From Chrysomallon squamiferum (lineage: Eukaryota; Mollusca; Gastropoda; Neomphalida; Peltospiridae): a DNA stretch of 64,000 bases. Below, piece by piece: positions 1,706 through 43,661 of the stretch. The translations under genes and the position numbers were made by a program. Location: the NCBI GenBank assembly GCA_012295275.1, contig CM022676.1, forward strand, positions 12,661,660 to 12,725,659, in the 5' to 3' direction. The number at the start of each line of letters is the position of its first letter. The first letter of the stretch is position 1. The notes under the pieces are model-generated. The model saw only the letters and a list, made by a program, of their open reading frames with translations. It made no database searches and was not told the DNA's origin.

Positions 1706-1772
1706 ATGTCAAACGCTTGGAGAGTATGTGCGGCGGTTGTGTTATTTTTCAGCCGATTCGGTATTATTTCAG
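1706..1772 (+). CDS. Gene A exon 1, signal peptide
   Basis: The ATG at 1706 opens a short reading frame with a hydrophobic core (residues AAVVLFF) and ends at a GT donor at 1773 in phase 1. It joins the Ig1 exon in frame. The exon is repeated identically in mirror image at 43595-43661, which supports both the start codon and the donor. Confidence 0.75.
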
Positions 1773-41100: not shown

Positions 41101-43661
41101 ACAGGTTTGGACCACGTGGACCATAAGGAAGCAGCCAAAAAAAGGAACAACAACAGCAGCAAAAAAGAAACAACATCAGAAGCCAAAAAGAAACAACGAC
41201 AGCAGCCAAGAGCAGAACAACCAGGACGGCAAACAACACAGACCCGGTGATGGCTGAGAGATTGTGCCGGATATCACGGGGGGCGGATTGCGGATGCGAT
41301 ACATCCGTACCGACTCGTTACGATCCGATATGCTGGACACTCCCTTGTGTCCTGCAATCGTGGCGAGAATCCATTCTTTTCCCTACCCAAAACTCTTTTC
41401 TGCGACGGACACGCCCGCTGACCTGTCAGAAAGCGTGCCCGTCGCAGACGTGCTTCACAACAGCTTGCTCTGATTAGCACGTTAATTTTTTTCCATTCCA
41501 TTCCAATAATAATAATAATAATAATGGTATGATAATAAACTGAAATTTATGTTTTATTTCACAATGTCATTATACTTGATGAAGACAATTCAGTAAATTG
41601 TCTGCAAATACTTGGTAGTTTTATTTTTTAGTGAATTACACAGTATACAGGATCAGCAACAAACTATGAACAGGTAAATATCAATTACTTTATTTTTATA
41701 AGTCAAGAAATCTGATGTCAGTGGATCCATAACCCAAGAAATAAACTAAGGGTCATCAATTATAAAATTCAAAGTACAGATAGATTTGGTTGATATGAGT
41801 TGTTTCAGGTTGTAGGTACAAGTTGTCTTGATTAAAAGGTATCTTGTACCGATGACAAGTGAATGCTGTTTGGAACAAGTAATACAAGAATGTCTTCTTG
41901 ACTCTGGGAAGAGATGGTTAGAAATTATACAATATTTATGAACATAAGTTAGCAGTGAAAATGTTTCAGTATTCAATCAAAATCAGCACTAGGTCATACA
42001 AGACAGGCACATTTTATCAAAAACGGTTTCTGTATTTTTAGTTCTGAAACATACTTGTCCCAAATTTGAAAAAATATCCCCATTACCGTAAGAATACTTT
42101 CTAATGAGAGGCCATATAATGTTTGAAACCATTGTCGCATTAACTAAAGAGGGTACCATGAACTTGTTTTATATTGGAAAAAAGGAACTTAAAAACAGAT
42201 AACCAACAGATGAAAATATATTTTCAATTTATTATTCTGTATTGACAGTTTAACAACACTGTGAAATGGAAACTATGACAAAACGACAAATAATGATAAT
42301 CACCATTTACTCATTACTATTAGTATGAGCACAAGTTTTGAAGCTGTGAACATGCATTTTGACATTTTACCCCATTGTTGACTTGTCAAAGTCTTTTCGT
42401 AGGTTTAATAATATAATAATACCATGCCTAGATAATTTCATTATATAAATCCATTTCCAGTCTTATGTAATGGGATACATGCAACAAACTAATGATTACC
42501 TATAGCAAAAAATATAATAATAATAAAAGATGTATTATAATTACAAGTTAGAATCACATGAATTATGTATGTGATGAAAATAATAACTGCATGCAGCAAA
42601 AGGTCACCCTATTTTTGTGATGTGTAATCACTTTTTTTGAAAGAGGTTTCCTCATTTAAGCTTCTGTTTCATTATCAATTTTACGCATTTTTCCAAAATA
42701 ACAAATATCATGATGTAGTCTGCATATTGAGCTTCATCTACATATTCAATTCTTGTATGAGAATCAACAGACAAGTTTACTATTTCAAAAAAGTGTTCTG
42801 TGACTAAGGTAAGCTTATTCAGGTCTTTAAATCATAATTTGAATATAATGCCTTTCTCTCATGGTCTGCCAAATTTCATATAATTATTTAAGGTAGCGGA
42901 TACTTAATTTGGGGCGTTCTCAGCAAATGATGTAGCCATGGCAATTATTGTTATTATGGATATCTGAGAAGATCAATGGTTCATTGTTTGTGTGGTGCGA
43001 TAATATTTTCTTTTTGATAATGCTGATTATGAACTGTGTCAGTAGCAAATTAGATTGTTATAACTGTTTGAGATCTGTATAATGAAGACATAAGGCAAAT
43101 CTTATTCATTAATTAGCTTATAAAAAATGTTTGCCAAATACTTGAAAAAGTCATGGCCTCTACAATTCATCCAAAGTTTCATCTTGAAAAATGATCTTTT
43201 TGTATAATGGTTTAACTTCTAGTGATTTTTTTAATTCAAATATAACTAAGATGTAAGGTAACATTCAAGTTAATTAGATTTGAAACTATATCTGCTTTCT
43301 GATAAAAGTTATATGTAAGTTTATAGGAAAATCTTATTTCTGAAATTTTTGTCACATACCTTACCTACATTACATGAATACTTATACATGCATCAACTTT
43401 TTGAAACTAAATAGGACGGTAATAACTTAATTGATGTACAAGGAACAATACTATACAATGCAGAAAAATAATCTGATCAGGTGAACATTAATTAACTATC
43501 AATATTTAATATTATTATTATACTATTATAATTAAGTATTATAGCAGTTGCCTTCATTAGTATTATTTAATTTACAATGATACAACCGTAATACCTGAAA
43601 TAATACCGAATCGGCTGAAAAATAACACAACCGCCGCACATACTCTCCAAGCGTTTGACAT
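23026..43661 (-). CDS. Gene B: 7xIg-FN3 transmembrane receptor with tandem ITAM-like tail
   Basis: Mirror paralogue of gene A. Eleven coding exons sum to 2862 nt, or 953 residues plus stop. Signal peptide, Ig1 to Ig7, FN3 and transmembrane segment occupy the same residue ranges as in gene A (1-888). The tail of about 65 residues is encoded by two exons of related sequence. Each contains YxxL, eight residues, YxxI/L, two residues and YxNL: Y897/Y909/Y915 and Y927/Y939/Y945. YxxL/I-x6-8-YxxL/I is the ITAM consensus, which in known receptors recruits tandem-SH2 kinases of the Syk/ZAP-70 family after Src-type phosphorylation. The inference is an activating partner of gene A. Intron 1 (9.9 kb) carries a LINE insertion in antisense orientation. 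An alternative is a phagocytic receptor with an ITAM of the Draper/CED-1 kind, which would use the same biochemistry. Confidence 0.85.
23432..23674. mobile_element. hAT-type MITE
   Basis: Begins CAGGGGTCACCAACC and ends GTTGGTGATCCGTG, terminal inverted repeats of the hAT type. It is flanked by the near-perfect 8-bp duplication TACTAAAG / TTCTAAAG. The 243-bp element is non-coding and sits in the last intron of gene B. Confidence 0.75.
23920..24018 (-). CDS. Gene B exon 10, first ITAM-like module
   Basis: 99 nt, phase 1-1, acceptor TTAAAG and donor GTAACT. Encodes TTYEGL, eight residues, then YSRIEMYENL. It is parallel to the last exon residue for residue in spacing, so the two arose by exon duplication. 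Confidence 0.78.
24104..24241 (-). CDS. Gene B exon 9, transmembrane segment
   Basis: 138 nt, phase 1-1. A stalk beginning LEEKTGSNS precedes a Gly/Ala/Val-rich helix and LRRRGHFSRK. No charged residue lies in the helix, so no adaptor of the DAP12/FcR-gamma kind is needed; the tail has its own motifs. Confidence 0.82.
24526..24700. repeat. Interspersed repeat in intron 8, possible Tigger-type end
   Basis: Starts ACAGTAGTACCTTGACTTAC and continues with a phrase (GTGACCGAACTTGTATCTCA) typical of Tigger/pogo-like terminal regions. The same end occurs inverted at about 61084-61104. Intron 8 is 1.5 kb here against 0.28 kb in gene A, so the element entered after or during divergence. Confidence 0.35.
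25782..26420 (-). CDS. Gene B exon 8, Ig7 plus FN3
   Basis: 639 nt, phase 1-1, same borders as 10865-11503. Ig landmarks are KSVFCKPS and YKLTVCNEVG. The FN3 begins GPPLPPKEF. It is the last exon before the two genes lose similarity. Confidence 0.85.
27195..27300. repeat. (AAT)n then (GAA)n microsatellite
   Basis: An AAT run followed by about 60 bp of GAA immediately next to exon 7 of gene B. It is absent at the same place in gene A and so expanded after duplication. Confidence 0.9.
27333..27629 (-). CDS. Gene B exon 7, Ig6
   Basis: 297 nt, phase 1-1. Landmarks are LNINCSADG and GIYVCSVENG. One amino-acid difference from gene A. Confidence 0.85.
27795..28185 (-). repeat. Half copy of the TIR repeat family in intron 6
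   Basis: Orthologous to 9487-9870 in gene A. GTCATTCCGTGACAAATCAC marks the intact end. A short open frame across it is not a gene. Confidence 0.6.
28434..28730 (-). CDS. Gene B exon 6, Ig5
   Basis: 297 nt, phase 1-1, donor GTAAGT. Landmarks are LNIRCVVSGG and TCQCSAL. Confidence 0.85.
28992..29052. repeat. (ATT)n microsatellite
   Basis: About 60 bp of ATT in intron 5 of gene B. Gene A has a shorter, interrupted tract at about 8650-8680. Confidence 0.9.
29077..29394 (-). CDS. Gene B exon 5, Ig4
   Basis: 318 nt, phase 1-1. Identical to gene A at protein level from residue MSGNQ to the end of the exon. LTLTCKS and IECKIQN are the cysteine strands. Confidence 0.85.
29761..30024 (-). CDS. Gene B exon 4, Ig3
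   Basis: 264 nt, phase 1-1. Five substitutions against gene A, including R/T, T/R and L/V. Confidence 0.83.
30678..31016 (-). CDS. Gene B exon 3, Ig2
   Basis: 339 nt, phase 1-1. The first half is identical to gene A at nucleotide level, while the second half carries 8 amino-acid changes, including the F strand (KVSCAAEN against KVFCAAEN). Confidence 0.85.
33395..33700 (-). CDS. Gene B exon 2, Ig1 (V-like)
   Basis: 306 nt, phase 1-1. Same cysteine pattern as gene A, but about 13 of 102 residues differ, the most of any Ig domain. Changes cluster in the first strands after FHCSV and around the F strand (KWTCGYDDN against EWLCAYGEN). Confidence 0.85.
34302..34374. repeat. (CAA)n/(AAT)n microsatellite
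   Basis: CAACAA then AAT repeats in intron 1 of gene B, an expanded counterpart of the tract at 3487-3525 in gene A. Confidence 0.85.
35273..36749 (+). pseudogene. LINE ORF1, gag-like RNA-binding protein (frameshifted)
   Basis: The ATG at 35273 opens a lysine/threonine-rich N-terminal part with RPRDRSPSS. The frame ends at about 35608. The main part lies in another frame to 36749. The switch falls in or near a 9-A run at about 35557-35565, suggesting a one-base indel or sequencing slippage. The C-terminal half has three zinc knuckles in a row (CGHCQKWGHITNQC, CSFCGGNHH..C, CANCQGPHESH..C) expected to bind RNA. The last bases overlap the start of ORF2. Confidence 0.7.
36746..39622 (+). pseudogene. 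LINE ORF2, endonuclease-reverse transcriptase part
   Basis: About 958 codons. The N-terminal apurinic-type endonuclease shows LQWNAKGL, IQETWLG, GDFNCHNTLWG (about residue 170) and SDHHPI (about 245). The reverse transcriptase shows ATGPDKI, the AFDMVWR region, GIPQGSVISPTLFNIYI and the catalytic FADD at about 716-719. No clear in-frame ATG precedes the endonuclease, and the frame overlaps the ORF1 stop (GTGA), so translation may depend on re-initiation or frameshifting. It breaks at about 39560-39590 by a one-base shift; the continuation lies in the next frame. Confidence 0.8.
39623..40641 (+). pseudogene. LINE ORF2, linker and RNase H part
   Basis: After the first shift a linker in a second frame runs to a T7 run at about 39730, where a second one-base shift leads into the RNase H frame (39736-40641). 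RNase H has YTDGS, the acidic YTAELV, FSDSLS and LPAHVGILGNELAD, so all four catalytic acidic residues and the active-site His are present. A C-terminal Cys/His segment (NCSCG..H..FHC) follows. Catalytic residues are intact but two frameshifts disable the copy, unless they are assembly errors. Confidence 0.78.
40645..41526 (+). other. LINE 3' untranslated region
   Basis: Contains three long T runs (about 40645-40667, 40861-40880, 40899-40926), an A-rich segment, a GC-rich segment (41240-41470) and a terminal AAT run. No coding signal. Confidence 0.55.
42185..43594 (-). other. Gene B intron 1, upstream part
   Basis: Mirrors about 1773-3365 of gene A with scattered small indels. No coding feature. 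It confirms that the duplication includes the non-coding flank. Confidence 0.6.
43595..43661 (-). CDS. Gene B exon 1, signal peptide
   Basis: Identical in sequence to exon 1 of gene A, with the same ATG and GT donor. Upstream similarity to gene A extends to about 43950 and then stops where the third Ig1 block begins. Confidence 0.72.

Follow-up and report, generated by a model that had tools for sequence, protein, structure and literature searches.

Do the two large genes that face each other in a stretch of the genome of the gastropod Chrysomallon squamiferum encode receptors with one extracellular head and tails of opposite type? The stretch (assembly GCA_012295275.1, contig CM022676.1, forward-strand positions 12,661,660 to 12,725,659; 64,000 nucleotides in all, hereafter the window) has a G+C content of 30.7%. 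Gene A occupies positions 1706-17229 of the + strand (12 exons, 1026 amino acid residues) and gene B positions 43661-23026 of the - strand (11 exons, 953 residues), their stop codons lying 5.8 kb apart. All introns in both models have GT/AG ends, both frames reach a stop, and the exon junctions are of phase 1, the sole exception being the last junction of A (phase 0). Each predicted protein possesses a signal peptide and one transmembrane (TM) stretch devoid of charged residues (both recognized by eye), between which are found seven immunoglobulin (Ig)-type domains and one fibronectin type III (FN3) domain. The paired layout, with the same head and opposite-type tails, is well supported at the gene-model level, and opposite signalling by A and B is plausible from the motifs in their tails.

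The original prediction held that seven Ig/FN3 exons match in length and phase between the genes; this is borne out, and the signal-peptide exon matches too. The exon pairs, equal in length and all ending in phase 1, are the signal-peptide exon (A 1706-1772, B 43595-43661; 67 nt, no mismatches, GT donor), Ig1, the outermost domain with six cysteines (A 4126-4431, B 33395-33700; 19 mismatches in 306 nt), Ig2 (A 6778-7116, B 30678-31016; 11/339), Ig3 (A 7675-7938, B 29761-30024; 6/264), Ig4 (A 8305-8622, B 29077-29394; 1/318), Ig5 (A 8941-9237, B 28434-28730; 5/297), Ig6 (A 10029-10325, B 27333-27629; 2/297) and the exon shared by Ig7 and FN3 (A 10865-11503, B 25782-26420; 29/639). Pfam was given seven stop-to-stop open reading frames (ORFs) containing the A head exons and one containing the last head exon of B. 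Curated cut-offs are passed by Ig2 (C2-set_2, 27.9 bits, cut-off 21), Ig4 (C2-set_2, 27.4 bits, cut-off 21), Ig6 (Ig_3, 35.2 bits, cut-off 30), Ig7 (I-set, 25.8 bits, cut-off 23.7) and FN3 (fn3, 26.1 bits, cut-off 25), with 26.8 and 27.3 bits for the last two in B; Ig3 (Ig_3, E 6.6e-4) and Ig5 (Ig_2, E 9.4e-4) fall below theirs. By profile (Ig2, Ig4, Ig6, Ig7) the heads belong to the Ig superfamily.

Across the 2,527 nt of the signal-peptide exon and the seven head exons, 73 substitutions separate the two genes and no indel is present, whereas the 6,993 aligned columns of the introns between these exons contain 248 substitutions and 35 gap openings. From the intron indel rate about 13 exon indels would be predicted (P ~2e-5 for none), and the absence of a stop codon among 73 random substitutions has a P of ~0.03. 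Chance similarity of the heads is ruled out by these alignments. At the protein level 793 of 842 residues are identical and 49 differ, again with no indel; the differences as binned are 13 in Ig1, 8 in Ig2, 5 in Ig3, none in Ig4, 2 in Ig5, 1 in Ig6, 8 in Ig7 and 12 in FN3.

Are the heads and the tails of one age? Comparison of A with B in 400-nt windows reveals 92.6-99.5% identity over A 1401-11400, followed by a collapse. A scan of A 10800-11680 places the change point at 11424, inside the Ig7-FN3 exon and 79 nt before its end; 21 of 624 sites differ before this point and 53 of 243 after it (log-likelihood ratio 33.5, versus at most 7.7 in 500 shuffles). Divergence is about 3-4% over the ~10 kb ahead of the change point; the beginning of the intron that follows the FN3 exon differs at 42 of 164 sites (26%) and the TM exon (A 11785-11922, B 24104-24241) at 24 of 132 (18%), the figure for the head being 73 of 2,527 (Fisher P 1e-11 for TM exon versus head). 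The 5′ limit of the similarity lies near A 1408 / B 43962 and takes in some 300 bp before both ATGs (1408-2075 / 43962-43290 aligns at 91%), so that co-expression of the two genes is possible. A simple duplication of a single age is ruled out by the change point. The simplest history suggested by the two divergence levels would start from an older pair whose anchors and tails already differed; recent copying or conversion would then have carried the 10-kb head block from one gene to the other. This mosaic strengthens the paired-receptor layout. Inverted, near-identical arms with a 200-N gap nearby could also arise if two haplotypes or a fold-back had been joined in one contig. Such an assembly artefact is very improbable: the gap (48282-48481, the only one in the window) lies outside A-B, and the arms lead into unrelated tails, differ in their insertions and fall into two levels of divergence.

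The tails were compared with the consensus forms of the immunoreceptor tyrosine-based inhibitory motif (ITIM), the immunoreceptor tyrosine-based activation motif (ITAM), the Grb2 site (YxN) and the YxxPhi site. The tail of A is encoded by three exons (16049-16183; 16814-16911, with TYENV at Y937; and 17047-17229, with the stop codon and an AATAAA at 17290 behind it). Two of its six tyrosines fit the ITIM consensus, LLYVGI (17077-17094, Y979) and VEYVSI (17146-17163, Y1002); they are 23 residues apart and both lie in the last exon, at the end of the protein where they had been predicted. The tail of B has six tyrosines (897, 909, 915, 927, 939 and 945) in two exons. The first (23920-24018) encodes ETTYEGL-x8-YSRI, the first ITAM-like module, together with YENL; the second (23026-23123) encodes YECL-x8-YTNL, YANL and the stop codon. 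A third match to the ITAM consensus, YENL-x8-YECL, spans the exon junction. The canonical spacing within an ITAM is x6-8, and the x8 of B falls within this range. Of the two YxxL-x8-YxxI/L modules originally assigned to B, the first is firm by consensus, whereas the second resides in a separate exon and is in frame only through a weak acceptor. In 100,000 shuffles of each tail sequence, two ITIMs are reached in 0.56% for A (P=0.0056) and at least two ITAMs in 0.01% for B, both modules being counted in frame (P=1e-4); the first tail exon of B alone reaches one ITAM in 0.2% (P=0.002).

Neither tail has a recognizable counterpart in the other gene, in agreement with the prediction that the tails differ completely, and no remnant of the other gene's tail was found in A or B. 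A tblastn search with the A tail, taken at E<=10 outside the two genes and at E<1 and <60% identity inside them, gave no match beyond its own exons among the matches listed. Where A and B are compared by blastn between the TM exon and the tails, a single match of 41 bases reaches E<=1e-3; the A tail region yields one of 21 bases on the B side (E 0.012). Only two ITAM-like strings occur on the + strand at 11900-17300, one in a low-complexity run (14143) and one where intron sequence joins Y937 (16783). On the - strand of 17300-24080, raw translation contains 26 ITIM-like hexamers, which is the background level, and none of these resembles the A tail.

Whether the second module of B is translated depends upon the acceptor of the last exon. 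The weak acceptor, CTCTAAG (exon start 23123), scores -0.9; a strong one, TTTGCAG, lies 22 nt upstream (start 23145), scores 13.5 and leads into a frame that reaches a stop with no tyrosine. Among AG sites on the + strand (3,303 in number), the score of the strong acceptor is equalled or exceeded by 0.24% and that of the weak acceptor by 27%. The matrix was built from ten acceptors of this locus, A head exons among them, and the contrast between weak and strong is therefore inflated. The tail exons of B look like duplicates of each other (53 of 75 nt identical), with differences leaning synonymous in the YxxL frame (pS 0.47 and pN 0.25 for synonymous and nonsynonymous sites, as compared with 0.33/0.27 and 0.16/0.33 in the other frames; small counts, no significance test), which favours the weak acceptor. 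The chance that the second module is in frame is about even. The first tail exons of both genes have weak acceptors and lengths divisible by 3, so frame-neutral skipping is possible; in B it would delete the firm ITAM module.

One may ask whether B is simply a decaying or partly decayed copy. This is improbable, even though the strong acceptor (13.5 versus -0.9) would throw the second module out of frame, retroelement ORFs occupy intron 1 of B (34.5-42.2 kb), and the cluster contains dead pieces such as an Ig4 fragment. The 2,527-nt head of B has suffered neither stop nor indel in the course of 73 substitutions, its first ITAM module is intact, and the insert is intronic.

A further possibility is that A and B differ in docking or trafficking, and not in the sign of their signals, being adhesion or uptake receptors that follow different routes. 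YxN sites of Grb2 type by consensus are found at three of the six tail tyrosines of B (YENL, YTNL, YANL) and at one of six in A (YENV), and the tail motifs also fit YxxPhi endocytosis signals. An oyster receptor with five Ig domains and an ITAM is described as signalling through ERK (PMC11999971). The spacing of the YxxL-x8-YxxI module in B and the presence of two ITIMs 23 residues apart in A exceed what Grb2 docking needs, and we regard this explanation as unlikely, although it deserves more weight than decay or misassembly.

Do the two heads see the same ligand? Ig1 is the most changed of the Ig domains (13 of 102 residues), from which it follows that a common ligand is possible, not given. 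Of the paired-receptor reading in the original prediction, the same-head/opposite-tail layout stands at the gene-model level; the shared ligand is an assumption, and the independent origin a conjecture. The Ig1 ORF retrieves from Pfam solely a sub-threshold unrelated family (E 0.022); the A and B exons, scanned by themselves, match no family, and a third copy, C, has an ig match below threshold (E 0.054). When the three copies are combined into a profile, 28 PDB sequences are matched at E<=5 (the best at E 0.088); every one of them is named as an antibody chain or fragment, and on these weak matches Ig1 may be read as a V-like domain. The structure predicted for it from an alignment of three sequences had a mean pLDDT (predicted local distance difference test) of 33 and was not used. 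Among the three copies pN in the Ig1 exon is 6.5-8.6%, versus 2.6-3.8% in the adjacent intron, and synonymous sites stand at 5.5-9.9%. The excess possibly reflects exon-level exchange or diversifying selection; the latter is not claimed, since synonymous divergence is raised too and comparison of A with B gives a Fisher P of 0.08.

What would such a pair do? Ligand binding to A would lead to phosphorylation of Y979 and Y1002 and to the recruitment of a SHP-type tandem-SH2 phosphatase, by which the cell would be damped. In B, phosphorylation of Y897/Y909 would recruit a Syk-type tandem-SH2 kinase or, alternatively, Grb2 would be bound through YENL, YTNL and YANL; the outcome would be activation or uptake. 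The TM stretch of B contains no charged residue (by eye) and the ITAM-like motif is in the receptor itself; with the motif in cis, B would need no adaptor. Conversion of the heads would let B go on recognizing whatever A recognizes, by analogy with the decoy logic of CEACAM3 against CEACAM1. Expression, a shared ligand and the direction of the signals are here inferred from sequence. What is found in the window is a linked pair of near-identical heads, ITIMs in the A tail (by consensus only), a cis ITAM in B, and a contrast between heads that are alike and tails that have diverged.

CEACAM heads differ in architecture from those of A and B and lack FN3. CEACAM1 and CEACAM3 otherwise resemble A and B in combining very similar Ig heads with an ITIM tail in one member and an ITAM-like tail in cis in the other; they differ in being vertebrate, the human pair binding pathogens. 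In the CEACAM family, as described in PMC2832619, ITIM/ITAM pairs have heads kept alike by gene conversion and recombination amid gene birth and death, and decoy logic is stated for CEACAM3 against CEACAM1. Such CEACAM pairs are reported elsewhere for Xenopus. What sets A and B apart from the CEACAM pairs is a homogenised block of 10 kb, running from the signal exon to FN3, in an inverted gene pair. FCGR2B and FCGR2C likewise share a head that bears an ITIM or an ITAM tail within one cluster, and PMC6563257 describes FCGR2C as a chimera in which the tail of FCGR2A follows a head like that of FCGR2B; FCGR2 receptors have two extracellular domains and an x12 ITAM, in contrast to the x8 of the A/B system. 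CEACAM3 and FcgammaRIIA/C are like B in carrying the activating motif within the receptor itself.

The comparison originally drawn with KIR, LILR, SIRP and Siglec receptors holds for the paired logic and fails as the closest mechanism, given that in these families a charged TM residue links most activating members to DAP12 (PMC2832619), whereas the TM stretch of B is uncharged and its motif is in cis. Searches at sequence level revealed no family-specific homology that would indicate descent from KIR, LILR, SIRP, Siglec or CEACAM. The 13 PDB matches at E<=1e-3 are titin, DIP, nectins, antibody chains, DSCAM, NCAM and contactin, and a full-length search with A recovered two generic Ig proteins (FGFR-like and a butterfly protein) among 8,000 scored candidates.

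Also comparable are non-vertebrate Ig receptor clusters with putative activating and inhibitory members. PMC12065747 reports ITIM or hemITAM motifs in Botryllus FcoR genes and cites ITIM or hemITAM/ITAM motifs for Hydractinia Alr genes, so that tails with an ITIM or a (hem)ITAM are already on record for Ig receptors of invertebrates. FcoR differs from A/B in having V, sushi and two C2 domains, and two FcoR loci switch motif by alleles or splicing; no sushi domain was matched in the eight A/B head pieces scanned with Pfam. The oyster CgIgIT2 resembles B in that it crosses the membrane once, has several Ig domains and bears the ITAM itself; its Ig domains number five, and the passage on it in PMC11999971 describes no partner; an oyster Siglec-like protein has also been described (PMC5877582). 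Among the titles and abstract openings listed by searches of an open-access library, some of them aimed at vertebrate pairs, no invertebrate pair was seen in which near-identical heads carry ITIM versus ITAM tails. New here, on the evidence of the alignments, is that the A/B pair has two ages, a young head block standing on older, different tails.

Further Ig exons nearby suggest that A and B belong to a gene cluster. Just upstream of B, on the - strand, lies C (45029-45334), an isolated, intact third copy of the Ig1 exon, bounded by phase 1 on both sides and followed by intron 2. Identity is 84-85% with the copy in A and 82% with that in B, and the DNA similarity to A sets in ~6 nt ahead of the exon. 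The A/B signal exon was not seen in any further copy, and C might serve as an alternative first domain or be a remnant. The dead Ig4 exon fragment (21782-21946), with two stops and 62% amino acid identity, sits on the + strand between the two tails. D (50705-52485, - strand), also upstream of B, consists of two Ig exons of diverged sequence, 52485-52177 and 50995-50705, their ends read by eye; the second matches C2-set_2 with 44 bits and the first gives a sub-threshold ig match (E 0.002). A simple scan listed no TM-like segment for D, which represents another member of the family or a portion of one. A 68-copy AG/CT microsatellite (22838-22974) stands directly behind the stop codon of B. An interspersed repeat of ~400 bp with inverted sub-units occurs in introns of A and B (9487-9884 and 27789-28184) and at 59712-60246. 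Rfam produced no match at gathering thresholds.

Several observations weigh against an inhibitory/activating pair. The tail acceptors score poorly (-4.6 for A tail exon 1, -2.3 and -0.9 for B tail exons 1 and 2, versus 8-17 for head and TM exons). ITIM-like matches are common in AT-rich DNA of this kind: the window's stop-free six-frame segments of at least 15 residues (89,577 residues) contain 399 ITIM and 23 ITAM matches, so ~0.7 ITIM is expected per 150 residues. The A motifs are for this reason unremarkable by themselves, and it is their position, spacing and splice frame that carry the weight. A protein search with the A tail revealed no relatives at E<=1 among 60 candidates (the B tail was not searched). 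The whole-head dN/dS of 0.82 does not demonstrate purifying selection, and constraint on the head is visible in the retention of the reading frame, not in amino acid conservation. Intron 1 of B harbours an insert of ~7.7 kb (34495-42181, + strand, antisense to B) that contains ORFs of a non-LTR (long terminal repeat) retroelement, with endonuclease and reverse transcriptase, and RNase H in a separate ORF; the closest database proteins are 51-52% identical, and the named matches are mixed (fishes, spiders, a pseudoscorpion, brine shrimp and others).

On balance we lean towards A and B being an inhibitory/activating receptor pair within a small Ig-receptor cluster, and somewhat favour that explanation in its entirety, mechanism and origin included. 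More tentatively, at a little short of an even chance, the locus may represent a non-vertebrate ITIM/ITAM pair whose heads are kept alike by recent gene conversion between inverted genes and whose tails are opposite, a counterbalancing of CEACAM1/CEACAM3 type in an unrelated family of seven Ig domains and FN3. Paired receptors are widely thought to answer pathogens that exploit inhibitory receptors. If the interpretation is correct, the arms-race solution of homogenised heads and opposite tails would not be tied to vertebrate lymphocytes, and A and B would provide a concrete gene pair with which to test that idea.

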